From Halopseudomonas oceani (GTDB lineage: Bacteria > Pseudomonadota > Gammaproteobacteria > Pseudomonadales > Pseudomonadaceae): a stretch of 64,000 nt of DNA. The translations under genes were made by a program, and so were the position numbers. Of this stretch, positions 6,037 through 60,382 are shown one piece after another (the first letter of the stretch is position 1; every line of letters starts with the position of its first letter). A model generated the notes under the pieces. That model was not told the origin of the DNA, did not search any database, and was given only the letters and a program-made list of their open reading frames with translations. Location: NCBI RefSeq assembly GCF_002903165.1, contig NZ_PPSK01000008.1, positions 62,001 to 126,000 on the forward strand. The letters are read 5' to 3'.

Positions 6037-7103
6037 TGGCGCTGGTACGCATGACTTCACCGCACGCCAAGGGTAACAACCATACCCAGACCATCATGCT
6101 CTGGGTACTCGGTGCGACGCTGCCCGGCATCGCGGTGCTGACCTGGTTCTACGGTTTCGGCACGCTGATCAACATCGTCTACGCCAGCGTGGTCGCCCTG
6201 CTGGTCGAATCACTCATCCTGGCTATCCGCAAGCGCCCTATCGGCTTCTACCTGCGTGACGGCAGCGCCCTTGTCACCGCCTGGCTGCTGGCGTTGGCAC
6301 TACCTCCCTATGCGCCCTGGTGGCTGACGCTGATTGCGGTCAGCTTTGCCATCGTATTTGGCAAACAGCTGTATGGCGGCCTCGGGCAGAACCCGTTCAA
6401 TCCGGCGATGCTGGGCTACGTGGTGGTGCTGATCTCCTTTCCGGTGGAGATGACTAGCTGGCCAGCCTGGCGTGGCATTGAAGCGGTGATGCCTGACGTG
6501 CATGCGACCCTGGGCTTGCTCGACGGCCTGAGCCGTATTTTCCTGCCGGTCAGCAGTGAGATCGACGGCTGGACACTGGCCACCGCACTCGATGCGGTCA
6601 AGACCAACAACAGTTTGACCATGACCGAGTTGCAGGCAGCCAACCCGGCCTTTGGCCAATTTGCCGGTTACGGCTGGGAATGGGTCAACGTCGCCTACCT
6701 GCTCGGTGGCCTGGTACTGCTGTACAAGCGCATTTACAGCTGGCATGCCCCAGTTGGCATGCTGGCAGCGCTGGTAGTAATGAGCCTGCTGTTCTGGAAT
6801 GGCAGCGGTTCCGATTCCAACGGCTCGCCGCTGTTCCACCTGTTCAGCGGCGCGGCCATGCTCGGTGCCTTCTTCATCATTACCGACCCCGTGTCTGGTG
6901 CCACCAGCAAACAAGGTCGGCTGATTTTCGGTGCTGGCGTAGGGATCATGGTCTATGTGATCCGCGCCTGGGGTGGCTACCCCGACGCCGTGGCCTTCGC
7001 TGTGCTGCTGATGAATCTGGCGGCACCGACCATCGACTACTACAGCACGCCGCGCACCTATGGTCACCGCAAGGCCAAACGCGGCATGGGCAAGGTGGAC
7101 TGA
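6036..7103 (+). CDS. rsxD: Rsx/Rnf electron transport complex subunit D
   Basis: Polytopic membrane flavoprotein of the NqrB/RnfD family, 355 residues with about nine to ten hydrophobic segments. By alignment from memory with E. coli RsxD (covalent FMN on Thr187), the FMN-carrying threonine should be Thr183 in the TLATALDAV stretch. The second conserved family motif DPVSGATS lies at about 285-291 near the C-terminus. The ATG overlaps the rsxC stop (TGATG), and rsxG follows after 3 bases. Stoichiometric co-translation of the complex is likely. Confidence 0.95.
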   Translation: MALVRMTSPHAKGNNHTQTIMLWVLGATLPGIAVLTWFYGFGTLINIVYASVVALLVESLILAIRKRPIGFYLRDGSALVTAWLLALALPPYAPWWLTLIAVSFAIVFGKQLYGGLGQNPFNPAMLGYVVVLISFPVEMTSWPAWRGIEAVMPDVHATLGLLDGLSRIFLPVSSEIDGWTLATALDAVKTNNSLTMTELQAANPAFGQFAGYGWEWVNVAYLLGGLVLLYKRIYSWHAPVGMLAALVVMSLLFWNGSGSDSNGSPLFHLFSGAAMLGAFFIITDPVSGATSKQGRLIFGAGVGIMVYVIRAWGGYPDAVAFAVLLMNLAAPTIDYYSTPRTYGHRKAKRGMGKVD

Positions 7104-50423: not shown

Positions 50424-51341
50424 TCAGACCAGATCTCTCACCTGTCCCTGCGTACCTTCCTGTTGCGGCAATACATCCACCGCCACACTGAGCGTGTGGT
50501 CTCCCCCACCGGTCATCACGCCCTTGAGCGGCGTCACATCGGCGAAGTCCCTACCCCAGCCAAGAATGATGTAGCGCTCATCCGGCACGCAGCCATTGGT
50601 AGGGTCCAACTCTAGCCAGCCCCAGCCAGGCACAAATACTGCGAGCCAGGCGTGGGTCGCATCGGCACCCAGCAACTTTTGCTGGCCCGGCGGTGGCAGT
50701 GTCTCCATATACCCGCTGACATACCTCGCAGACAGCCCCATTGAACGCAGGCAGCCGATCCCCAGATGCGCAAAGTCCTGACAAACCCCGCGTTTGCTGG
50801 CCAGCACGTCATGCAGCGGAGTAGCTAGCGTGGTGAACTCCGGATCATAGGTAAACTCAGAGAAAATACGCTGATTGAGATCCAGCACTGCATCAACCAG
50901 GTTGCGCCCTGGCGTAAAACTGCCGCGCGCATAATCGGCCAACCCCGGACTCTGGAAAATAAACGGCGAGCTAAGCGCATACAAACGCGCATCAAGCGTA
51001 TCGCGATTGGTCTGGCGCGGGTCATAGCGCAATTCGTCGACCGCCTGTTCCCAGCTGATGTTCGAGAAAATATCAGCGCTCGCGCGGGGACGCGTCACGA
51101 TCTCGCTGGTAACACTGACATCCAGACTCTCGTGCAGCGACTCGATCGAAAAGTAGACCACCCGGTTACCGAAAAAATCGGTGCGCTCACGCATGCGATC
51201 AGGTATCGGGGTGATTACCAGTTGGGTGTTGCTGCAATCCTGCCAAGGCAACACCCGCGGCAGGATGCGCGCTTCGTTGTGACTCAGGGTCACCGCGCCG
51301 CTGTACTGGTAATGCGTGGTATGGCGCAAAAGGTATCTCAA
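50424..51341 (-). CDS. Transglutaminase-like protein of the ATP-grasp/alpha-E island
   Basis: A 305-residue protein without a signal peptide: N-terminal beta domain (RHTTHYQYSGAVTLSHNEAR, about 1-80), helical linker, then a transglutaminase/protease fold with Cys187 (GVCQDFAHLG), His230 (DATHAWLAVFVPG) and Asp246 (LDPTNG). The triad is intact, so it is probably an active cysteine peptidase or amidotransferase. It is the last gene of the minus-strand operon, 15 bases after the fused ATP-grasp/alpha-E gene. In comparative-genomic work on amidoligases this family is predicted to cut or transfer the peptides made by the neighbouring ATP-grasp enzymes. Confidence 0.88.
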   Translation of the reverse strand: MRYLLRHTTHYQYSGAVTLSHNEARILPRVLPWQDCSNTQLVITPIPDRMRERTDFFGNRVVYFSIESLHESLDVSVTSEIVTRPRASADIFSNISWEQAVDELRYDPRQTNRDTLDARLYALSSPFIFQSPGLADYARGSFTPGRNLVDAVLDLNQRIFSEFTYDPEFTTLATPLHDVLASKRGVCQDFAHLGIGCLRSMGLSARYVSGYMETLPPPGQQKLLGADATHAWLAVFVPGWGWLELDPTNGCVPDERYIILGWGRDFADVTPLKGVMTGGGDHTLSVAVDVLPQQEGTQGQVRDLV

Positions 51342-51356
51342 TGTAGAGACCTCGAT

Positions 51357-53945
51357 TCAGGGCTGGCCAGTGTAGTGCATGCTGACCAGTTGGCGGGGAG
51401 CTTCAACATGACTGAAGTGACTATGCGACAGTGCGTTGGACAGCTCGGACATCGGCTCGATCAGTTGATCCAGCAGATTACTCAAGGCCTCCCGTGCAGC
51501 GGGCGAGCCTTCCAGATCAGTCAGGGTTTCAATGTCGACCAAATGCAGGCAGCTGGTGGCCTGAATGATCAACCGCTGCTCCAGATTACGATAGGGTGAA
51601 CTACCCGGTGACGGCAGCTTGGCTATTTGTCGCCCCAAGCGCTTGAGCATGTAGCCCACCGAACGCGGGTTGGTCTCATCGAACAGCAGCAGATCGAGAA
51701 TCGCCAGCGGATGCAGCTGCGAGCGGTAGCGGCGACGATATACCGTTAGGTTGTCCGTGGTTGCCAGCACCACCTCCCACAGCGGAATACCAGGCTCATC
51801 AGCATCCAGCAGAGCGAGCTTCAGCAGTTCCAGCGAGCCCAGCGTACGCTCGATGAAGCGGCCAATATCAAGGAAGCGCCAGCCGTAGTGATGCGGCATG
51901 GTTTCGTTGCAAAGACCAAAAAACGCCGCCAGATCGAGCACCATGGCTTCGAGGTGGCGCTGCCCTACCACCACGCCACGGGCGCGCGACATGCTGTTAA
52001 AGTGCTGCCGCAAGCTGTTGATCGCGCGCCAGGTATCATCACCCAGATGATCGCGAACCGCTCGACTGTTACGCACGAAGTTGCCAAAAATGACCGGCAA
52101 CCCTTCGGGCAGGTCGTCGGAGAACAACTGCAGCAAACGATCCCGGGTCACGATGTACTCGCGCGGGAATCGGCTATTGTTCGGCACATTCTCCTCGGTA
52201 AAGGCGTCCGGCTCCAACGCGACATCCAGCGCCCGCAGTAGGTCTGGCATCAACTGTGAACCGGTTTCCTGCCGGTCATCCTGCAGCAGACGCGCCAGCG
52301 CCTCGCGCAACAAGCGTCCGCGGGTATCCAAACGCTCACCATACCGCCCCATCCAGAACAAGCTTTCCGCCACGCGGCACGGCAGGTCCTTGCCGTCGCG
52401 CGTGACGACAATCGGACCAAGCGCCTGACGCAGCAGGCTGATGTGCGGTTGTGGCACCGGCGCCGTCACCCAGACATCCTTCACCAGCCGGCTTTTCATC
52501 AGAGGTGCGCCGGGTTCGCCGACCCAGGCCAGACCACCGGGCATTACCCGATAATTACGCTCATTGACCGGCTTGGTAAGATCATCCGGCTCGACCAGAC
52601 TGAAGAACCGCAGCGTTGCGCTCTGACGCTCAAACGTTTTGCTCTGCGGATTGAAACCAGGCACCACCGCAGGTGAGAGATGCCGCTGCGCGGTGAACAG
52701 ATACGGCTGGCGATCCATGCTGACACGAAGATCCCTCAGCGCTTCCAGTCCCATCTGATCGGCACGATAGACCCGTCCCGGTTTGCTGATGTCACGCAGC
52801 ACCCAGCCATCCAGCTCGGCACGCACCTGCGCCAACGCAGCAGGTTCGCCGCACCAGAGCGTTTCCCGGCATGGCAGCAGCAACTCTTCCCCCAGCAGCT
52901 CGCGGCACAGACTCGGCAGAAAGGCCAGTAATCCAGGATGCTCCAGCACACCGGCACCCAACGCGTTGGCAATATGCACGTTGCCGCAGCGCGCGGCCTG
53001 CAACAGACCGGGAACCCCGAGCAACGAGTCAGGACGCAACTCCAGAGGGTCACACCAGGGATCATTGATCTGCCGCAGAATGACATCCACCTGCTTCAAG
53101 CCACCGAGCGTGCGCATGGAAACCTGGCCATCGCGGACCACCAGGTCATCCCCTTCGACCAGCGAAAAGTTCATGTAGTTGGCCAGCCAGGCGTGCTCGA
53201 AATACCCCGGGCTGCCTGGCCCCGGCGACAGCAATACAATATTCGCTTGTTCTCGTTGGGTGCTGGCCAGGCTGGATAGGCAGCGATGCTGAGCCTGCAG
53301 AAAACCCGCCAACCGCTTGATCGGTGCATCGCGATACAGGCTCGGCAGCGCACGGGCAAGCGTAATCCGGTTTTCCAGCGCGTAACCGGCCCCAGCAGGC
53401 GACTGGGTCCAGTCAGCCAACACCTGCCAGCCGCCACTGCTGTCCCGGATGATGTCGGTGCCGTGGAAGATCAGCAGCGGGCGCTCAACCTGCGGTGGGT
53501 CATCGGCCGCCGAGAACAGAAACCCGGGGTGGGTGTAGATCAACTCGGGGGGCAAGAGGCCTTCACTGATGATTCGCCGGGCACCATAGAGGTCGTCAAG
53601 AATATGCTCCAGCAGACGACTGCGTTGTTTCAGCCCAGCCTCCAGCACATCCCATTCCTGAGTGGGAATGACCCAGGGCACGCAATCGAGTTGCCAGGAC
53701 CGCAACTGACCCGGATCGTCCTCGTAAGGATTGAAGGTGACGCCATTTTCATGCAGCAGGTTCTGCGCTTCTTCCGAGCGAGCAGCCAGCACGTCGGGGC
53801 CGAGCTGGACAATATCATCCAGCACGCCTTGCCAGTGAGCGCGCGGCTGCTGGTTGTCGCTCAGCAACTCGTCATGTCCGTCATGCCCTGGATAGTCCCC
53901 GAGAATGGCATTGACTGCGGGGTCCAGATTGGCGAGGTGTTGCAT
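51357..53945 (-). CDS. Fused circularly permuted ATP-grasp and alpha-E domain protein
   Basis: An 862-residue two-domain protein. Residues 1 to about 510 are a circularly permuted type 2 ATP-grasp domain (GVTFNPYEDD, YALENRITLARALPSLY, LLSPGPGSPGYFEHAWLA, SLVEGDDLVV, ALGAGVLEHPGLLAFLP). Residues about 520-855 form an alpha-E helical domain beginning RVAESLFWMGRYGERLDTRGRLL. The same two parts occur as separate genes at 57527 and 58988. It probably ligates an amino group to a carboxylate using ATP; substrates unknown. No signal peptide. Lies 54 bases after the 1105-residue transglutaminase gene. Confidence 0.9.
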   Translation of the reverse strand: MQHLANLDPAVNAILGDYPGHDGHDELLSDNQQPRAHWQGVLDDIVQLGPDVLAARSEEAQNLLHENGVTFNPYEDDPGQLRSWQLDCVPWVIPTQEWDVLEAGLKQRSRLLEHILDDLYGARRIISEGLLPPELIYTHPGFLFSAADDPPQVERPLLIFHGTDIIRDSSGGWQVLADWTQSPAGAGYALENRITLARALPSLYRDAPIKRLAGFLQAQHRCLSSLASTQREQANIVLLSPGPGSPGYFEHAWLANYMNFSLVEGDDLVVRDGQVSMRTLGGLKQVDVILRQINDPWCDPLELRPDSLLGVPGLLQAARCGNVHIANALGAGVLEHPGLLAFLPSLCRELLGEELLLPCRETLWCGEPAALAQVRAELDGWVLRDISKPGRVYRADQMGLEALRDLRVSMDRQPYLFTAQRHLSPAVVPGFNPQSKTFERQSATLRFFSLVEPDDLTKPVNERNYRVMPGGLAWVGEPGAPLMKSRLVKDVWVTAPVPQPHISLLRQALGPIVVTRDGKDLPCRVAESLFWMGRYGERLDTRGRLLREALARLLQDDRQETGSQLMPDLLRALDVALEPDAFTEENVPNNSRFPREYIVTRDRLLQLFSDDLPEGLPVIFGNFVRNSRAVRDHLGDDTWRAINSLRQHFNSMSRARGVVVGQRHLEAMVLDLAAFFGLCNETMPHHYGWRFLDIGRFIERTLGSLELLKLALLDADEPGIPLWEVVLATTDNLTVYRRRYRSQLHPLAILDLLLFDETNPRSVGYMLKRLGRQIAKLPSPGSSPYRNLEQRLIIQATSCLHLVDIETLTDLEGSPAAREALSNLLDQLIEPMSELSNALSHSHFSHVEAPRQLVSMHYTGQP

Positions 53946-53999
53946 GGAGCGGTTCCTGGTTCAGGCTGAGGTCAGCCGAGTGTGCTGGGTGACTGACGA

Positions 54000-56900
54000 T
54001 TATAAACCAGAGCTGCCAACGACAGCGCGGCGCAAATCCAGGGTGTGCGGATACTCCTGACCCGGCGCCTGCCGCACCTCCCCTGCCTTGCCCTGACTAT
54101 GACCATAGCTCCAGAACCGCGCCATGCGCCGCGCCTCAGCCTCATTGGCGTTAACCGGGAAATGCTCGTAATTGCGGCCAGCCGGATGCACCACATGGTA
54201 GGTGCAGCCTCCAACCGAGCGGCCGTTCCAGTTGTCGATCAAGTCAAACACCAGCGGCGCCTGGACACTGATCATCGGATGCAGCGCGGACGGTGGCTGC
54301 CAGGCGCGGTAACGCACCGCGGCTACCAGTTCGCCCGGCACGCCGGTTGCCTGCAGTGGCACCTTGAAGCCGTTGCAGGTCAGCTGATAGCGAGCCGGAT
54401 TGAAGTCATGCACCTTGACCTCCAGCCGTTCGACCGAGGAATCCACATAACGGGCGGTGCCACCACCGGCAACCTCCTCCCCCAGCACGTGCCAGGGTTC
54501 AATCGCCTGGCGCAGCTCGATGCGGGTATCTCCGTATTGGACCTCACCCGCATGCGGGAAGCGGAACTCCAGAAACGGCGCGAACCACTCGTCACGGAAA
54601 TCGAACCCGTGGGCACGCAGGTCGCGCAATACATCGCACAGATCACGCCACAGATAATGCGGCATCATCCATTTGTCATGCAGCGCTGTGCCCCAACGCG
54701 CCAGCGGCTGGCGGTAAGGCTCGGCATAAAAGCGGGCGACCAGCGCTCGAATCAGCAACTGCTGCATCAGACTCATGCGCGCATGCGGCGGCATTTCAAA
54801 CCCGCGCAACTCCAGCAGCCCGAGCCGGCCGGTCGCGCTGTCGGGCGAATACAGCTTGTCGACACAGAATTCGGCGCGGTGGGTGTTGCCGGTAATATCG
54901 GTCAGCAGGTTGCGCACCAGGCGGTCAACCAGCCAGGGCTGCGGTACCTCGCCGGACGGCATCTGCGCCAGCGCAATCTCCAGTTCATACAGCGCCTCAT
55001 GCCGGGCTTCGTCAATCCGTGGTGCCTGACTGGTCGGGCCGATAAACATGCCGGAAAACAGGTAAGACAGGCTCGGATGGTGCTGCCAGAAGGTCAGCAT
55101 GCTCGCCAGCAGGTCCGGCCGGCGCAGGAAAGGTGACTCGGCAGGCGTGCGACCACCGAGGGTAACGTGGTTACCGCCCCCGGTGCCGGTGTGGCGGCCA
55201 TCGAGCATGAACTTCTCGGTACCGAGCCGCGTCAGTCGTGCTTCCTCGTAGAGAGTCTCGGTATTGCGCACCAGCTCAGGCCAGCCGGCCGCGGGCATGA
55301 TGTTCACCTCAATCACCCCTGGGTCCGGAGTGATCATGAATTTCTCGATGCGGTTATCCGATGGGGGGGCGTAGCCTTCGATGCAGACCGGCAGATTCAG
55401 CTCGGCGGCGGTGTGTTCAACAGAAGCCAGCAGCTCCAGGTAGGACTCCAGCCGAGCCAGTGGCGGCATGAAGACAAACAGCTTGCCGTCACGCGGCTCA
55501 ATGCACAGCGCGGTGCCGATAACGCCGCAGTCGATCAGCTCCGGCCGCTGTTCCTGCCAGTCCTGTCCGGCTGCAACGTGGTGAAGCGAACCCTCCCCGT
55601 CGGCGTACATTGCACTGTAGCGGCTGGCCACTTCGCCATGCAGATCTGCCAGCGGCGCCTGCTCCTCGAACAGTGACGTCGGCTGCGGCTCCTCGCGGCG
55701 GGCGATCGGCAGCGCCGACAGCGGCAACCGCAGGCCCATCGGTGAATCGCCGGGCACCAGATAGAGCTGCTCGCGACGCAACGGCCAACTGCCGCTGAGC
55801 CAGCCGCCCTGCGTCGCCGCCAATGGCAGCGTGTAGCCGACCGGCGCATCCAGGCCGCGCTCCAGCAACCGCGCAAGGCGCAGACGGTTGTCATCGTCCT
55901 TGAGGTCTTCGCCGCGCAAATCGACGTCAATCGGTTGCGTGCGCTCCAGCCAGAGGTAATAGTAGGCATCCTCGAAACAGGGGATCAGATGCGAGTCCGA
56001 GACGCCAAGGCGCCGTGTCAGCGCCTGCGCAAACTGCAGCGCCTTGGCATCGTCCACGCCGTAGTCCCGATCCATGTCGGCCAGCCAGCGGTCGTCCTGC
56101 CACATGGGCTTACCGTCGCGGCGCCAGTAACACGCCAGCGCCCATCGCGGCAGTGGCTCACCCGGATACCATTTTCCCTGTTGATAATGAATAAGCGACT
56201 GGGGCGCAAAATGCGGGCGCAGACGCCGTAGCAAGGTCTCGGAAAGCCCTCTTTTGGTTGGCCCCTGGGCAGCAATGGTCCATTCTGGTGCATCCATATC
56301 ATCAATGGAGACAAAGGTTGGCTCGCCGCCCATGGTCAAACGTACGTCCAGCGCCTGCAACTGCGCATCTACCTGTTCACCCAGCGCGAGAATCTCTGCC
56401 CACTGATCTTCAGTGTACGGTTTGGTTACACGGGGATCTTCGTGCACCCTGGTGACGCTCATATCGAAGGAAAACGTCACCTCGCAGGGCTCGGTTGCAC
56501 CGCTAATGGGCGCGGCGCTGGCAGGCTCTGCCGTGGCGGCCAGCGGCAGATGCCCTTCGCCAGCCAACAGGCCCGAGGTTGGATCCAGCCCGATCCAGCC
56601 TGCTCCAGGCACAAACACCTCGGTCCAGGCGTGCAGGTCTGTGAAATCGGTTTCGGTACCGGACGGACCGTCAAGCGCCTTGACGTCGGCCGTCAGTTGA
56701 ATCAGATAGCCTGAAACAAAGCGCGCTGCCAGCCCCAGATGACGGCAGATATGCACCAGCAGCCAGGCCGAGTCACGGCACGAACCGCTGCCCAGCGTGA
56801 GTGTCTGTTCCGGGGTCTGTACGCCGGGTTCCATCCGGATCATGTACTGAATTTCATTGGCCAGACGCTGATTCAGCGAGACCAGGAAATCCGTAATCGA

Positions 56901-57317
56901 GCGTTCTTCACGGTCAACCTTGCCGATCCAGCCAGCCAGTTTCGGGCCCGCTTTTGGCGTTTCCAGATAGGGCGCCAGCTCTTTTTTCAGCTCGTCCCTG
57001 TAGTCGAAAGGGAACTGCTCGGCGTATTCCTCGACAAAAAAATCAAAGGGATTGATCACCGTCATCGGTGCGATCAGCTCCACCTCAATAGAGAGGCTGG
57101 TCATCTTTTCAGGAAACACAAGGCGCGCCACATGGTTGCCGAACGGGTCCTGCTGCCAGTTGATGAAGTACTCACCTCCGCTAACCTTGAGGCTGTAGGC
57201 ATCAACTGGCGTGCGGCAGTGCGGTGCGGGACGCAAGCGGATGAGATGGGGCGCAACCGAAATCGGCTTGTCGAACTCGTAGTGGGTTTCATGCCGGAGT
57301 GCAACGCGAATAGTCAT
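54000..57317 (-). CDS. Large transglutaminase-DUF2126 protein
   Basis: A 1105-residue protein, first gene of the minus-strand operon. Residues 1-250 are a transglutaminase unit like the gene at 50424, with Cys180 (GSGSCRDSAWLL), His229 (DLHAWTEVFVPG) and Asp245 (LDPTSG). From about 320 on it is the DUF2126 region: RLTMGGEPTFVSIDDMDAPE, HYQQGKWYPGEPLPRWAL, ICIEPRDGKLFVFMPP-type and GGGNHVTLGG blocks, which resemble a COOH-NH2-ligase/glutamine-synthetase-like fold by published prediction. It may therefore both build and cut amide bonds. No signal peptide. Divergent from the ATP-grasp gene at 57527. Confidence 0.9.
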   Translation of the reverse strand: MTIRVALRHETHYEFDKPISVAPHLIRLRPAPHCRTPVDAYSLKVSGGEYFINWQQDPFGNHVARLVFPEKMTSLSIEVELIAPMTVINPFDFFVEEYAEQFPFDYRDELKKELAPYLETPKAGPKLAGWIGKVDREERSITDFLVSLNQRLANEIQYMIRMEPGVQTPEQTLTLGSGSCRDSAWLLVHICRHLGLAARFVSGYLIQLTADVKALDGPSGTETDFTDLHAWTEVFVPGAGWIGLDPTSGLLAGEGHLPLAATAEPASAAPISGATEPCEVTFSFDMSVTRVHEDPRVTKPYTEDQWAEILALGEQVDAQLQALDVRLTMGGEPTFVSIDDMDAPEWTIAAQGPTKRGLSETLLRRLRPHFAPQSLIHYQQGKWYPGEPLPRWALACYWRRDGKPMWQDDRWLADMDRDYGVDDAKALQFAQALTRRLGVSDSHLIPCFEDAYYYLWLERTQPIDVDLRGEDLKDDDNRLRLARLLERGLDAPVGYTLPLAATQGGWLSGSWPLRREQLYLVPGDSPMGLRLPLSALPIARREEPQPTSLFEEQAPLADLHGEVASRYSAMYADGEGSLHHVAAGQDWQEQRPELIDCGVIGTALCIEPRDGKLFVFMPPLARLESYLELLASVEHTAAELNLPVCIEGYAPPSDNRIEKFMITPDPGVIEVNIMPAAGWPELVRNTETLYEEARLTRLGTEKFMLDGRHTGTGGGNHVTLGGRTPAESPFLRRPDLLASMLTFWQHHPSLSYLFSGMFIGPTSQAPRIDEARHEALYELEIALAQMPSGEVPQPWLVDRLVRNLLTDITGNTHRAEFCVDKLYSPDSATGRLGLLELRGFEMPPHARMSLMQQLLIRALVARFYAEPYRQPLARWGTALHDKWMMPHYLWRDLCDVLRDLRAHGFDFRDEWFAPFLEFRFPHAGEVQYGDTRIELRQAIEPWHVLGEEVAGGGTARYVDSSVERLEVKVHDFNPARYQLTCNGFKVPLQATGVPGELVAAVRYRAWQPPSALHPMISVQAPLVFDLIDNWNGRSVGGCTYHVVHPAGRNYEHFPVNANEAEARRMARFWSYGHSQGKAGEVRQAPGQEYPHTLDLRRAVVGSSGL

Positions 57318-57526
57318 GTTCCGTTATCCCATCAATGTATGCGGTCAATTCATCCAGCCGATCAACGAAGCAATGGCTGTGCCAATCGGCGAGCGTCCTA
57401 TTTTGTTAACACGGTTGGGTGACAATTATTCGAGTGCACCCAGCGCCTCATGCCCTGATCCGGTGCATCTGGTATGGCAATTGCAAGTTGCAGAGTATCC
57501 CTTCCCCTGGCGGACAGAGTAGCTGA
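57318..57526. promoter_or_regulatory. Shared divergent control region of the ATP-grasp island
   Basis: A 209-bp gap between two diverging start codons serves both operons, so common regulation is likely. I could not find a convincing sigma-70 or sigma-54 promoter pair or a clear operator palindrome in it. Confidence 0.5.
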
Positions 57527-58984
57527 ATGAGCAAAGTAAACTGGGACGATTACACATCCGAAGGCTTCTACGATGAACTGATAAAGGCACCAGGGCAGCC
57601 GCGACCGGAGGCGGAACTGCTGTGCCAATACCTCGCCAACCTCGATGCCCGCGAGCTGAGCGAACACAAGACGGCGGCCGAAGTTGCCATCCAGCTGATG
57701 GGCATCACCTTCACTGTCTACACCGAAGGCAACATGATCGACCGGGCCTGGCCCTTCGACATCGTGCCGCGCATCATCCCGCTGGCCGAATGGCAAAAGA
57801 CCGACGCCGGACTCAAGCAGCGGGTACAGGCGCTCAACATGTTTATCGACGACCTTTACCACGACCAGAAGATCGTCAGGGACGGCGTGGTGCCGCGCGA
57901 AGTGCTGGCCCAGTCGGTCAACTTCCGTCCGCAGTGCGTCGGCATCTCCACGCCGCATAACGTCTGGGCACATATCTGCGGCTCGGACCTGGTGCGCGAC
58001 AAGGACGGCACCCTCTACGTGCTGGAAGACAACTTGCGTGTGCCGTCTGGTGTGTCGTACATGCTCGAGAACCGCAACGTCACCAAGCGCGTGATGCCCG
58101 ACCTGTTCGCCACCGGCCAGATTCAGCCGGTCGACGACTACACCGCGCAGTTGTACGACATGCTCGCGTCACTCTCGCCCCGTCCCGGCGACGACCCGTG
58201 CATCGTCATTCTGACCCCCGGCATATACAACTCCGCCTACTACGAGCACTCCTACCTTGCCCAGCAGATGGGCGTGCAGCTGGTTGAGGGCACGGATCTA
58301 GTGGTTGGCGACGACGACTGCGTCTACATGCGCCGCATCGACGGGCTGGCCCGGGTCGACGTGATCTACCGCCGGGTCGACGACATGTTCATCGACCCCG
58401 AGGTGTTCAACCCCGAGTCCATGCTCGGCGTGCACGGCCTGATGCGCGCCTGGCGCAAGGGCAACGTGGCACTGGCCAATGCGCCGGGCGCCGGCGTGGC
58501 CGATGACAAGGTGATCTACGCCTTCGTGCCCAAGATCATCGAGTACTACCTCGGCGAGCAGCCGCTGCTGCCGAATGTACCCAGCTACCTGTGCATGTTC
58601 GAGGACGACCGCAAATACGTGCTCGACAACCTCGACAAGCTGGTGGTCAAGCCCGCCAACGAGTCCGGCGGCTACGGCATGCTGATCGGCCCGCACGCCA
58701 GCAAGAAGGAACGCGAGACCTTTGCCGAGCTGATCAAGGCAGACCCGCGCAACTACATGGCGCAGCCAACCCTCAGTCTTTCGACCTCGCCGACCCTGTG
58801 CGGCAACAACCAGATGGAGCCACGTCACGTCGACCTGCGGCCGTTCATCCTGTCCGGGGAGTCTACCTGGGTTACCACCGGCGGCCTGACCCGGGTCGCA
58901 CTTACCAAGGGATCGCTGGTCGTCAACTCCTCTCAGGGCGGCGGCAGCAAGGACACCTGGATCGTAGACCTGGCGGGGAACTGA
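57527..58984 (+). CDS. Stand-alone circularly permuted type 2 ATP-grasp protein
   Basis: A 485-residue protein equal to the first domain of the fused gene: GITFTVYTEGN, LRVPSGVSYMLENRNVTKRV, ILTPGIYNSAYYEHSYLAQQ, QLVEGTDLVVGDD, ANAPGAGVADDKVIYAFVP and the C-terminal VVKPANESGGYGMLIGP ATP-binding loop. It is expected to form an amide or peptide bond with ATP hydrolysis in the cytoplasm; substrates are unknown. Followed after 3 bases by the alpha-E gene, its predicted partner. Full-length family proteins are 470-490 residues. Confidence 0.92.
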   Translation: MSKVNWDDYTSEGFYDELIKAPGQPRPEAELLCQYLANLDARELSEHKTAAEVAIQLMGITFTVYTEGNMIDRAWPFDIVPRIIPLAEWQKTDAGLKQRVQALNMFIDDLYHDQKIVRDGVVPREVLAQSVNFRPQCVGISTPHNVWAHICGSDLVRDKDGTLYVLEDNLRVPSGVSYMLENRNVTKRVMPDLFATGQIQPVDDYTAQLYDMLASLSPRPGDDPCIVILTPGIYNSAYYEHSYLAQQMGVQLVEGTDLVVGDDDCVYMRRIDGLARVDVIYRRVDDMFIDPEVFNPESMLGVHGLMRAWRKGNVALANAPGAGVADDKVIYAFVPKIIEYYLGEQPLLPNVPSYLCMFEDDRKYVLDNLDKLVVKPANESGGYGMLIGPHASKKERETFAELIKADPRNYMAQPTLSLSTSPTLCGNNQMEPRHVDLRPFILSGESTWVTTGGLTRVALTKGSLVVNSSQGGGSKDTWIVDLAGN

Positions 58985-58987
58985 CCA

Positions 58988-59956
58988 ATGCTTTCACGAG
59001 TTGCCGAAAACGTTTACTGGATGGCCCGCTATCTGGAGCGCGCCGAAGATACCGCTCGCCTGCTGAGTGTGAACAGCCACCTGTTGCTGGACCTGCCGCG
59101 CGCAACCAAGCTCGGCTGGTCCGAAATCATCGCCATTACCGGCAATGACGAATTGTTCGACGAGTTCTACCCCACCCGTGACGAAGCCAGCGTGCTGTCG
59201 TTCATGTGTGGCGACCGTCGCTACCCCGGCTCGATCCTCAGCTCGCTGGCCGCCGCGCGGGAGAACCTGCGCACCACCCGCGACGTCATCCCGCGGGAGA
59301 TTTGGGAAGAGGTCAACCAGCTGTACCTGAGCGTTAAGGAGCAGGTTGGCTCAGGTATCACTCCGCGCCGGCGCGATGCATTTTTGGGCCGGGTGATCCG
59401 CAGCTGTCAGACCGTCAATGGTCTCATTGAAGGTACGCTCAGCTATACGCCGGTGCGCTCCTTTCTGATCGTCGGACGACAGCTCGAACGGGCAGATATG
59501 ACCACCCGCATCATTGATGTGCGCTCGGCCAATCTGCTGCCGCGCAGCGCAGAAGACCTCAAGCCCTTCGAGACCTTGCAGTGGATGAGTGTGCTCAAGT
59601 CACTGACTGGCTACCAGATGTACCGCCAGCATGTACGCCTGCGTATCCGCGGGCCGGACGTGCTCAGTTTTCTGCTGCAGGACCAGCTATTCCCGCGCAG
59701 CGTCGCCTGCTGCATGGACCGTCTGGCAGAAGCGCTGCAAGGTTTGCCACGTCATGAACTGGCACTGAAGGAAGTCGAAACCTGCCGGCAGGACCTGAGC
59801 AAGCCGGACGTAACGCTGCTGGCTGCAGAACCGGATCAGTTGCACGCCTTTGTCGATGAAATCCAGATCGATTTCGACGACCTGCACGCGGCAATCAGCC
59901 AGACCTACTTTGCCCAGCAGGAACTCAATCAGAGCCAGAGTCAGAGCGCGAGCTGA
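58988..59956 (+). CDS. Stand-alone alpha-E domain protein
   Basis: A 322-residue all-helical protein starting MLSRVAENVYWMARYLERAE, the alpha-E (DUF403) signature. Further blocks are NLRTTRDVIPREIWEEVNQL, DMTTRIIDVRSANLL and FLLQDQLFPRSVACCMDRL. The family always accompanies ATP-grasp and transglutaminase genes but its own chemistry is unknown. Ends in a QSQSQSAS tail. No Anbu proteasome-type peptidase gene follows, though such a gene often completes this cassette elsewhere. Confidence 0.92.
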   Translation: MLSRVAENVYWMARYLERAEDTARLLSVNSHLLLDLPRATKLGWSEIIAITGNDELFDEFYPTRDEASVLSFMCGDRRYPGSILSSLAAARENLRTTRDVIPREIWEEVNQLYLSVKEQVGSGITPRRRDAFLGRVIRSCQTVNGLIEGTLSYTPVRSFLIVGRQLERADMTTRIIDVRSANLLPRSAEDLKPFETLQWMSVLKSLTGYQMYRQHVRLRIRGPDVLSFLLQDQLFPRSVACCMDRLAEALQGLPRHELALKEVETCRQDLSKPDVTLLAAEPDQLHAFVDEIQIDFDDLHAAISQTYFAQQELNQSQSQSAS

Positions 59957-60004
59957 GGCCCCCCGCTGCCGAGAGCTCAACACCTCGGCGGCGGGACACC
60001 TCAA

Positions 60005-60382
60005 TCAGGCAGCTACGATCGGGATCAGGCGCGGGCGGGTCGGATTGGACGGCAGCGGGGGCAAGCCGTGAGCGGCTCTGGCGCGCTGACAGTCCGGGCT
60101 GTCCAGCCCGTTTTCACCGTGAAATGGGAAGTCACGGCAAGGACTCGGGCGCTTCTCGTAGATACTGCAGCGAACGCCCTCACCGACCGTTCCCATCAGA
60201 CCCACACAACGCGGCTGGGGCTGATTGGTGCCCTGCATGCAGGCACGGTACGGTGTTATCTGTTCAGTAAGCTGGGTGGGTACGTCACCCCCTGGGGCAC
60301 TGTCAGTTTCTCCCCAGTAAAAAGACACCCTGAATGTGGCGCAACAGGCACCGCAGTTCAGACAGGGCGAATGGTCGCTCAT
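60005..60382 (-). CDS. YkgJ-family cysteine-cluster protein
   Basis: A 125-residue protein with [19 protein letters not shown] at the N-terminus and [20 protein letters not shown], the CxxCxxCC...C...C pattern of YkgJ proteins, thought to bind zinc or an iron-sulfur cluster. Function unknown. The ATG at 60382 ([15 protein letters not shown] upstream) is preferred to an in-frame start at 60445, whose added residues are non-homologous. Its 3' end converges on the alpha-E gene (48-bp gap). Confidence 0.83.

Follow-up and report, generated by a model that had tools for sequence, protein, structure and literature searches.

Whether two copies of one domain pair, lying face to face in the same gene island, amount to two working ligases is the question raised by a locus of Halopseudomonas oceani, which we analyzed within a 64,000-nucleotide stretch of contig NZ_PPSK01000008.1, hereafter called the window. 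The island consists of three minus-strand genes, encoding a large transglutaminase-like protein with a DUF2126 domain (TG-DUF2126), a protein in which a circularly permuted (CP) ATP-grasp domain is fused to an alpha-E domain, and a small transglutaminase-like protein (TG), and of two plus-strand genes in which ATP-grasp and alpha-E are split. The open reading frame calls and the Pfam domains, all of which scored above the curated cut-offs in the five genes, agree with a first-pass annotation made from the sequence alone as regards the five genes, their coordinates and strands, the 209-bp spacer between the two groups (57318-57526) and the assignment to predicted amidoligase families. That annotation also proposed two complete modules and two non-identical ligases, one elongating a product and the other attaching or trimming it. 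The first part stands insofar as the fused protein has both domains; its ATP-grasp domain, however, lacks the catalytic signatures, and the two-ligase pathway should give way to a scheme in which a single ATP-grasp ligase is active, the fused copy is its pseudo-ligase partner and DUF2126 is the candidate second ligase. On balance, we consider it probable that the island encodes a sigma54-dependent nitrogen-starvation system for making and breaking amide bonds, organized around such a ligase and its pseudo-ligase partner.

The split ATP-grasp protein (57527-58984, plus strand, 485 residues, CP_ATPgrasp) aligned nearly end to end, over residues 17-480, with entry 3n6x of the Protein Data Bank (PDB), and it keeps VVKPANESGGYG, RHVDLRPF and NSSQGGGSKDTW in this alignment; that of the fused protein (51357-53945, minus strand, 862 residues, CP_ATPgrasp plus Alpha-E) was confined to residues 51-423. 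In a set drawn from the same order (53 fused and 45 split rows), 56 of the 204 columns conserved in the split form were kept by at most 10% of the fused rows, and the columns given up include those of E167, N169, D326, K328, D436 and N467. When distant phyla were included, and split rows of at most 430 residues and fused rows of at most 780 residues were left out, E167, N169, D326, K328, D436 and the GGYG loop were each present in 104 of 104 split rows, whereas E167 was kept in 2 of 109 fused rows and the others in none. Twenty further stretches, to which only the cut-off on split rows was applied, gave the same picture: N169 was missing in 7/7 fused rows and all 13 split rows were intact. In the pooled fused rows, N169 was thus kept in 0/116 and E167 in 2/116, these two residues forming the Mg2+ motif ExN, although the rows counted here, like those of the triad and motif counts given below, are not independent since some genomes are present in both collections (L089 and L185, as well as L293 and L155, are apparently identical). 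An alignment-free motif search, in which the window and L155 are counted twice, found the EDN-hydrophobic-R motif in 135 of 138 split proteins, GGYG in 138, HxDLRP in 133 and NSSQGGG in 138, and none of the four in any of 137 fused proteins; the weaker motif DDK was present in 138/138 and 5/137, respectively. The ATP-grasp domain of the fused protein in the window (52521-53678, minus strand) is devoid of the ExN, glycine loop, DDK, HxD and NSSQGGG signatures.

A profile search of the PDB with the split alignment gave 3n6x as the only match. The E. coli Gss sequence contains R316, D318, E330 and N332 and a KPIAGRCG loop, which we take to bind Mg2+ and ATP, and its D...ExN pattern resembles D154, E167 and N169. 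Since no alignment was obtained with hhalign between the split profile and the single E. coli Gss sequence, the correspondence of D...ExN and KP...G to Gss is one of motifs only. In the related ligase Cp1B, alanine at R139, D141, E163 or N165 abolished or significantly attenuated the activity (PMC12568646), and the split-type ATP-grasp protein of a Yersinia Anbu operon was reported to release phosphate from ATP (PMC6376114).

The loss concerns catalytic residues and not the fold, since the ligase fold is retained in the model of the fused protein although the signatures are gone. The AlphaFold model has a mean predicted local distance difference test score (pLDDT) of 85.2, and its top match in a fold search was 3n6x (E 8.5e-28, TMt 0.84), followed by glutathione and homoglutathione synthetases and related effectors, YgiC, YjfC, Gss and trypanothione synthetase, with Cp1B (9cjn) also among the matches. 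All 34 matches with E values of at most 0.001 belong to the CP ATP-grasp ligase fold, and the characterized ligases among them couple carboxylates to amines. The fused rows retain R99, E240, D290, N318, D476 and W478 in 109/109 cases, R438 in 108, D154 in 103 and K375 in 83, which suggests selection on the fold and possibly on some of the pocket. Since the Mg2+ and phosphate-binding signatures are lost and the fold is kept, the fused ATP-grasp domain is probably a pseudo-ligase, predicted to be non-catalytic. No statement that it is inactive was found in the literature searched, a search outside which most subscription papers lie.

The alpha-E part of the fused protein (51414-52385, minus strand) retains both of its ER motifs: R14, E17, R18, E167 and R168 of this domain were found in 95 to 100% of 117 rows, and D170 and E107 are not retained. 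A search of the PDB by sequence gave no match for alpha-E, and the alpha-E part of the fused model had no fold match of its own below E 0.6. The fused and split proteins (the latter including the 322-residue alpha-E protein at 58988-59956, plus strand) carry the only two copies of alpha-E in this genome. A single branch parts all the fused rows from the split ones both in the tree of ATP-grasp domains (110 rows, quick method, SH-aLRT 100) and in that of alpha-E (108 rows, support 100/100). Because the fused rows lie on one side of a single branch in both trees, the data fit a single old fusion with later divergence and not a duplication that took place recently in this strain.

The idea that both ATP-grasp proteins are active ligases in a two-step pathway can draw on the recognizable CP ATP-grasp domain present in each of them, and on the residues still found in the fused copies, namely K375 in the majority and K475, D476 and W478 in 107 to 109 of the 109 rows. 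The ExN, glycine loop, HxD and NSSQGGG signatures are gone, however, from all or nearly all the fused proteins and kept in all or nearly all the split ones, and the substitutions made in Cp1B at the ExN residues show how much a related ligase depends on them, so that we regard two active ATP-grasp ligases as very unlikely. The first-pass annotation had itself named the loss of ATP-binding residues in either ATP-grasp domain as evidence that would refute its scheme, and the fused copy shows this loss. A catalytic fused domain with altered chemistry, involving another nucleotide, another metal arrangement or phosphotransfer, is also unlikely in our opinion; in its favour, the fused form has been kept across phyla with D290, N318, E240, D476 and W478 invariant, R171 is replaced by Q in 105/109 fused rows, and the branch dividing the two forms is fully supported. 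Against it, no replacement of the glycine loop is shared by the fused rows. The latter also look more diverged, with a median identity of 43% as against 55% in the split rows, a comparison which is biased because the rows were thinned at different cut-offs (65% and 80%). We prefer the reading in which the fused protein is most likely a non-catalytic partner.

The regulation of the island points to its being switched on as a whole. The gaps between the genes are short (15 bp between TG and the fused gene, 54 bp between the fused gene and that of TG-DUF2126, and 3 bp between the split ATP-grasp and alpha-E genes), and the genes are therefore taken to form two operons diverging from the spacer at 57318-57526. 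The first-pass annotation had overlooked two sigma54-type promoters in this spacer, along with the amidoligase annotation of DUF2126. A -24/-12 type element conforming to the strict pattern, TGGCACAGCCATTGCT, lies on the minus strand at 57369-57384, 51 bp ahead of the start codon of the minus operon, and a second one with one mismatch, TGGTATGGCAATTGCA, faces the split ATP-grasp gene on the plus strand at 57470-57485, 41 bp ahead of its start codon. In the 4.16-Mb genome of this strain, 20 sites conforming to the strict pattern were detected versus 1 for the reversed control. Eight of these sites were opened. Four lie ahead of urtA, glnA, a cytosine permease gene and nirB, and two ahead of genes whose products score only weakly as sulfonate-type binding proteins; the remaining two are followed by a histidine kinase gene and by an open reading frame with no NCBIfam match. 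Elsewhere in the same genome (G000:C12:11092-11593), four near-identical sigma54-like sites occur on one strand within about 500 bp, and may be either a repeated promoter or a repeat element.

Both sites were found, with at most one mismatch, in all 20 spacers sampled from the genus, the window's own included (L274 and L275 fell outside this sample, and L267 ends at a contig end where the start could not be located). The mean identity to the window was 93% at the minus-operon site and 97% at the plus-operon site, as compared with 49% in the rest of the spacer, and the sites are its best-conserved blocks, the block at the start of the split gene reaching 83% (in this alignment L264 and L273 were taken at a fixed length, the start of the split gene not being placed). 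A short GTGACA-like block at 57419-57424 recurs at a similar position in many of these spacers.

The wider scans, from which upstream regions of less than 150 bases were dropped (as were those containing N in the best 80 loci and in the alpha-E set), place the sites at the heads of the operons. In the order set, with at most one mismatch, a site was present in 24 of 46 regions upstream of split ATP-grasp genes and 18 of 61 upstream of DUF2126 genes (0.3 and 0.4 in shuffled sequences), and in none of those upstream of fused (53), alpha-E (46) or TG (57) genes. In the best 80 loci of a wider scan, the corresponding counts were 19/37 for split ATP-grasp and 18/78 for DUF2126 genes, versus 0/54 for fused, 0/39 for alpha-E, 0/16 for Anbu and 1/65 for TG genes. 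Among 20 alpha-E loci, many of the Anbu type, a site preceded 16/20 split ATP-grasp, 1/20 alpha-E, 0/15 TG and 0/2 fused genes. Overall, recognizable sites occur in these wider sets at about half of the split ATP-grasp genes and at a quarter to a third of the DUF2126 genes; DUF2126 genes co-directional with the split pair may be read from the promoter of the latter. In the window, the spacer is predicted to contain two divergent sigma54 promoters controlling the two operons jointly.

The activator acting on these promoters is most likely phosphorylated NtrC, to judge from the behavior of homologous genes. A tentative dyad, TGCCCTGATCCGGTGCA, is present at 57451-57467, and matches 10 of 12 positions (two mismatches) of what we take to be the NtrC consensus; with at most two mismatches, it was found in 5 of the 10 divergent spacers of the order set, the window among them. 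In an ntrC mutant of Burkholderia cenocepacia, the log2 changes of I35_5080 to I35_5083 were -8.2, -9.4, -9.4 and -6.0, which corresponds to a drop of about 64- to 680-fold (PMC5491218). In Pseudomonas putida, PP_2686, PP_2687 and PP_2688 appear in a list of genes upregulated in all strains under nitrogen stress, the first of its three columns giving 12.6, 11.0 and 14.7 (PMC7801951), PP2686 and PP2687 were also upregulated under nitrogen limitation in a second dataset, in which PP_2685, the Anbu gene, has a value of 11.1 (PMC3325844), and both PP_2688 (log2 3.99) and PP_2685 (log2 4.44) went up on nitrate (PMC8050072). Upregulation of Anbu in nitrogen-limited P. putida was noted in another report (PMC5666114), and in marine metagenomes these domains are associated with urea-metabolism domains (PMC3597751).

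The catalytic residues of the two transglutaminase-like enzymes are intact, as the first-pass annotation had stated: the Cys-His-Asp triad was found in 136/136 rows of the small and 153/153 rows of the large protein, some genomes being counted twice. The small protein TG (50424-51341, minus strand, Bact_transglu_N plus Transglut_core) is encoded by the final gene of the minus operon and has an intact triad, as has the transglutaminase-like half (56580-57302) of TG-DUF2126, the product of the first gene (54000-57317, minus strand, 1105 residues, Bact_transglu_N, Transglut_core and DUF2126). The DUF2126 domain proper (54030-56492) is described in Pfam as a putative amidoligase. A search of the PDB by sequence with the DUF2126 part gave nothing below E 0.15, the matches being unrelated proteins. 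In the AlphaFold model of the whole protein (mean pLDDT 79.7), the first part matched transglutaminases in Foldseek, and weak structural matches to glutamine synthetases were also obtained (8fbp_V with E 0.061 and probability 0.82, 5zli_A with E 0.10, and 8fbp_H with E 0.17); the other non-transglutaminase matches in the 50 rows listed were a putative protease, two axonemal chains and one ankyrin-complex chain. These weak matches are the evidence on which DUF2126 is probably a second ligase, of a glutamine-synthetase-like kind. GCS2 (PF04107) was considered as a comparison for DUF2126 and was dropped, having given a single weak match among 19 genomes, and neither DUF2126 nor COG4196 was mentioned in the literature searched, where PF09899 occurs in one paper.

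The split pair can occur without the fused gene, and the fused gene without the split pair was shown in no whole genome checked. In the order, where DUF2126 was present in 89 and alpha-E in 153 of 293 genomes, at least two copies of alpha-E were found in all 89 genomes with DUF2126, versus 16 of the 64 having alpha-E without DUF2126. The gene arrangement was compared in 61 loci, consisting of 60 of the 88 DUF2126 loci and the window. All five genes lay within about 20 kb in 44 of them, including the window, while nine had no nearby split pair, two lacked the fused and TG genes, and six had TG-DUF2126 alone. The DUF2126, fused and TG genes are usually consecutive in that order, apart from L100 and L107, and the split pair is placed upstream, downstream or divergently. 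All nine genomes with no split pair near the locus have a separate alpha-E gene elsewhere, with an ATP-grasp partner seen in seven. Whether the fused copy ever occurs without the split one, as had been asked in the first-pass annotation, can thus be answered in part: all 53 fused-bearing loci of the order come from genomes with a separate alpha-E gene, the ATP-grasp partner being seen in 51, and in the best 80 loci kept from a wider scan of named records, 29 showed a fused gene but lacked a split pair within reach, a count which applies to the surroundings of the locus only. In a phylum-wide sample of 398 genomes (DUF2126 in 120, alpha-E in 212), at least two alpha-E copies were counted by eye in 111/120 genomes with DUF2126, versus 12/92 of the others. 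Five of the nine exceptions were opened (G326, G349, G483, G536 and G608, the others being G338, G367, G378 and G429), and the stretches fetched contained the split pair and no fused gene. Among the matches listed, fused genes were present in Planctomycetaceae, Singulisphaera, Nitrospirota, Geminisphaera, Opitutae, Lacinutrix, Bryobacterales, Desulfuromonadales and Desulforhopalus.

Within the genus, DUF2126 was detected in 22 of 37 genomes and alpha-E in the same 22, of which 21 have two alpha-E copies and one, an incomplete genome (81%), has a single copy. Twenty genomes, the window included, were opened around the gene of the split alpha-E protein, and the same flanks as in the window, namely the genes of an electron transfer flavoprotein (ETF)-ubiquinone oxidoreductase and of a beta-lactamase-fold hydrolase, were found in 17 and 18 of them, respectively, some stretches stopping short. 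Since the flanks are shared and both domains occur in the same genomes, the unit mostly occupies a single chromosomal site, and a genome has either the whole of it or none. The possibility that the two halves are regulated and inherited independently, which would have spoken against treating them as one system, thus found no support in the genus, where both promoter sites are also general, but was partly confirmed outside it: the two halves lie at separate loci in some genomes of the same family, the 10 kb around named Pseudomonas loci contain no split pair, and genomes having the split form only are common, although many of the separated halves still have a sigma54-like site upstream.

Various peptidases accompany the ligases. 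Anbu was found in 64 of the 293 genomes of the order, namely in 20 of the 89 with DUF2126, 42 of the 64 with alpha-E and no DUF2126, and 2 lacking alpha-E, these counts being uncorrected for relatedness. No Anbu was detected in the genome of our strain at E 1e-20, its sole proteasome-family protein being HslV, encoded beside HslU. A metallopeptidase combining a Zn-ribbon and Peptidase_Mx (PF10005 plus PF15887) is encoded near genes of this system in 17 loci, and directly after alpha-E in 16 of the 20 genus genomes (among L277-L295, and in L155 from position 6203), whereas the window and three others are without it there and have either lost it or never had it. Its gene is absent from positions 59957-60335 of the window, tblastn of a relative's protein against the window gave no match, and a search of the whole genome gave none either, the control being equally silent. 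Because different peptidases travel with the same ligase pair, the pattern favours a chemistry of making and trimming. Among the 25 clusters listed of open reading frames of at least 30 residues within 4 kb, most of which are unannotated, no small modifier was evident, and the only clusters spanning distant loci were the metallopeptidase, Anbu and the frames opposite them. In L072, ATP-grasp, alpha-E, TG and Anbu genes lie on one strand and diverge from DUF2126, fused and TG genes on the other, as if two ancestral operons stood side by side. In L149 (9494-12325), in a genome with no match to DUF2126, the split ATP-grasp and alpha-E genes are accompanied by the metallopeptidase gene and by Anbu on the opposite strand.

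The mechanism that we propose would work as follows. On nitrogen starvation, the two back-to-back -24/-12 promoters would turn on both operons jointly, phosphorylated NtrC being the most likely activator of the two. The split ATP-grasp protein would act as a carboxylate-amine ligase, with alpha-E as its helical partner, and DUF2126 is probably a second, glutamine-synthetase-like ligase, while the two transglutaminase-like Cys-His-Asp enzymes would hydrolyse or transfer the amide product. The fused protein, most likely non-catalytic, may bind substrate or nucleotide, or scaffold the DUF2126-TG enzyme with the active ligase. The likeliest products would be small amine or peptide conjugates that the cell forms or recycles when nitrogen is short; the literature searched assigns neither a substrate nor a product to these families.

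Several results weigh against parts of this mechanism. Because the fused rows keep D476, N318 and E240 throughout and K375 in 83/109 cases, nucleotide binding or some other chemistry is possible in the fused domain. The upstream regions of 22/46 split ATP-grasp and 43/61 DUF2126 genes have at least two mismatches to the sigma54 pattern, that is, no recognizable site. The NtrC-like dyad is present at up to two mismatches in 4 of the 20 genus spacers, counting the window's own, and its identity across the genus is 39%, lower than in the remainder of the spacer (49%); since it is not conserved in the genus, the role of NtrC rests on homologues. Among these, PP_2685 was approximately unchanged (1.12) in the first column of one dataset (PMC7801951), two of the four P. 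putida promoters tested as sensors, including that of PP_2685, were nitrogen-agnostic (PMC8050072), and the NtrC-bound Caulobacter gene hvyA, which encodes a transglutaminase homologue whose kinship to the island is not assumed here, went up rather than down when ntrC was missing (PMC10274813). DUF2126 resembles glutamine synthetase only weakly (E 0.06 to 0.17). When the Yersinia operon was co-expressed, Anbu was reported neither to interact specifically with the remaining proteins of the operon nor to act as a peptidase (PMC6376114). A search for expression data or biochemistry on the present strain found none.

What the system makes can be pictured in other ways. One is a pupylation-like tagging, in which proteins would be joined to a peptide or small modifier that peptidases later take off, so that nitrogen is recycled under starvation. 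Protein tagging had been proposed for the Anbu operon (PMC6376114), and the company of ligases with several peptidases (TG, Anbu, the Zn-ribbon metallopeptidase), the nitrogen control of the homologues and the weak glutamine-synthetase likeness of DUF2126 are in keeping with it; given the lack of an evident modifier among the largely unannotated clusters listed, and of Anbu in this genome, we nevertheless hold it to be unlikely. Polyamine gamma-glutamylation provides a precedent for nitrogen scavenging through acylated amines. A similar role of the ligase, in which amines or peptides from the environment would be given an acyl or gamma-glutamyl group before their nitrogen is removed, agrees with the sigma54 signal shared with urtA, glnA, cytosine permease and nirB and with the carboxylate-amine coupling of the characterized fold matches, which include YgiC and YjfC, termed peptidylpolyamine synthetases (PMC12568646). 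It seems doubtful, however, since the conserved partners identified are ligases and peptidases only, with no transporter or dehydrogenase among neighbours of which most clusters are unannotated. A possible but tentative extension of the pseudo-ligase mechanism, finally, is that the pseudo-ligase is obligate: on ammonium depletion, the fused protein would recruit substrate, or meter it, between the split ligase, DUF2126-TG and peptidases that can replace one another (Anbu, TG or the Zn-ribbon metallopeptidase), so that an amide conjugate is made or recycled.

Amidoligase systems combining ATP-grasp, alpha-E and transglutaminase, DUF2126 included, were reportedly described by Iyer, Abhiman, Burroughs and Aravind in 2009. 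The island has the same families and the same operon logic of a ligase, alpha-E and a transglutaminase-like peptidase, but here one ATP-grasp/alpha-E pair is fused and lacks the catalytic signatures, and the two operons share one spacer with two sigma54 sites. The CP ATP-grasp ligases (3n6x, glutathione and homoglutathione synthetases, GspS, YgiC and Cp1B) have their fold in common with the fused part and D...ExN in common with the split copy, whereas ExN and the glycine loop are missing from the fused copy; to our knowledge, none of them has an alpha-E domain. The Anbu operon of ATP-grasp, alpha-E, transglutaminase and Anbu genes, such as PP_2685 to PP_2688, has the same split families and sigma54 signal, and its homologues were reported to be induced by nitrogen limitation in P. 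putida; in our strain, by contrast, no Anbu was found in the genome, and alpha-E is followed by neither a transglutaminase nor Anbu. In B. cenocepacia H111, I35_5080 to I35_5083, encoding an ATP-grasp protein (DUF404/407), alpha-E (DUF403), a transglutaminase and a large transglutaminase-like protein, form one NtrC- and sigma54-dependent cluster, for which the accessible part of the report lists four genes and names no fused ATP-grasp/alpha-E protein (PMC5491218).

Judged by its genes, the island is thus an ordinary and intact representative of a broad, known family, and relatives provide a precedent for its probable regulation. What is apparently unreported is that the fused copy is probably a conserved pseudo-ligase, which in the whole genomes checked is accompanied by a split partner predicted to be active, and that a conserved pair of predicted sigma54 sites precedes both operons. 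This gives a testable inducing condition, nitrogen starvation through sigma54, and names the split ATP-grasp protein, with its partners, as the one worth assaying as a ligase, which the fused protein probably is not; purifying the latter as "the ligase" would probably show nothing. Among the matches listed for TG-DUF2126, the one with the highest identity (87%) was that of Halopseudomonas pachastrellae. In L073, L076, L123 and other relatives, the reading frames of the fused and TG genes overlap by 4 bp, which suggests that their translation is coupled.

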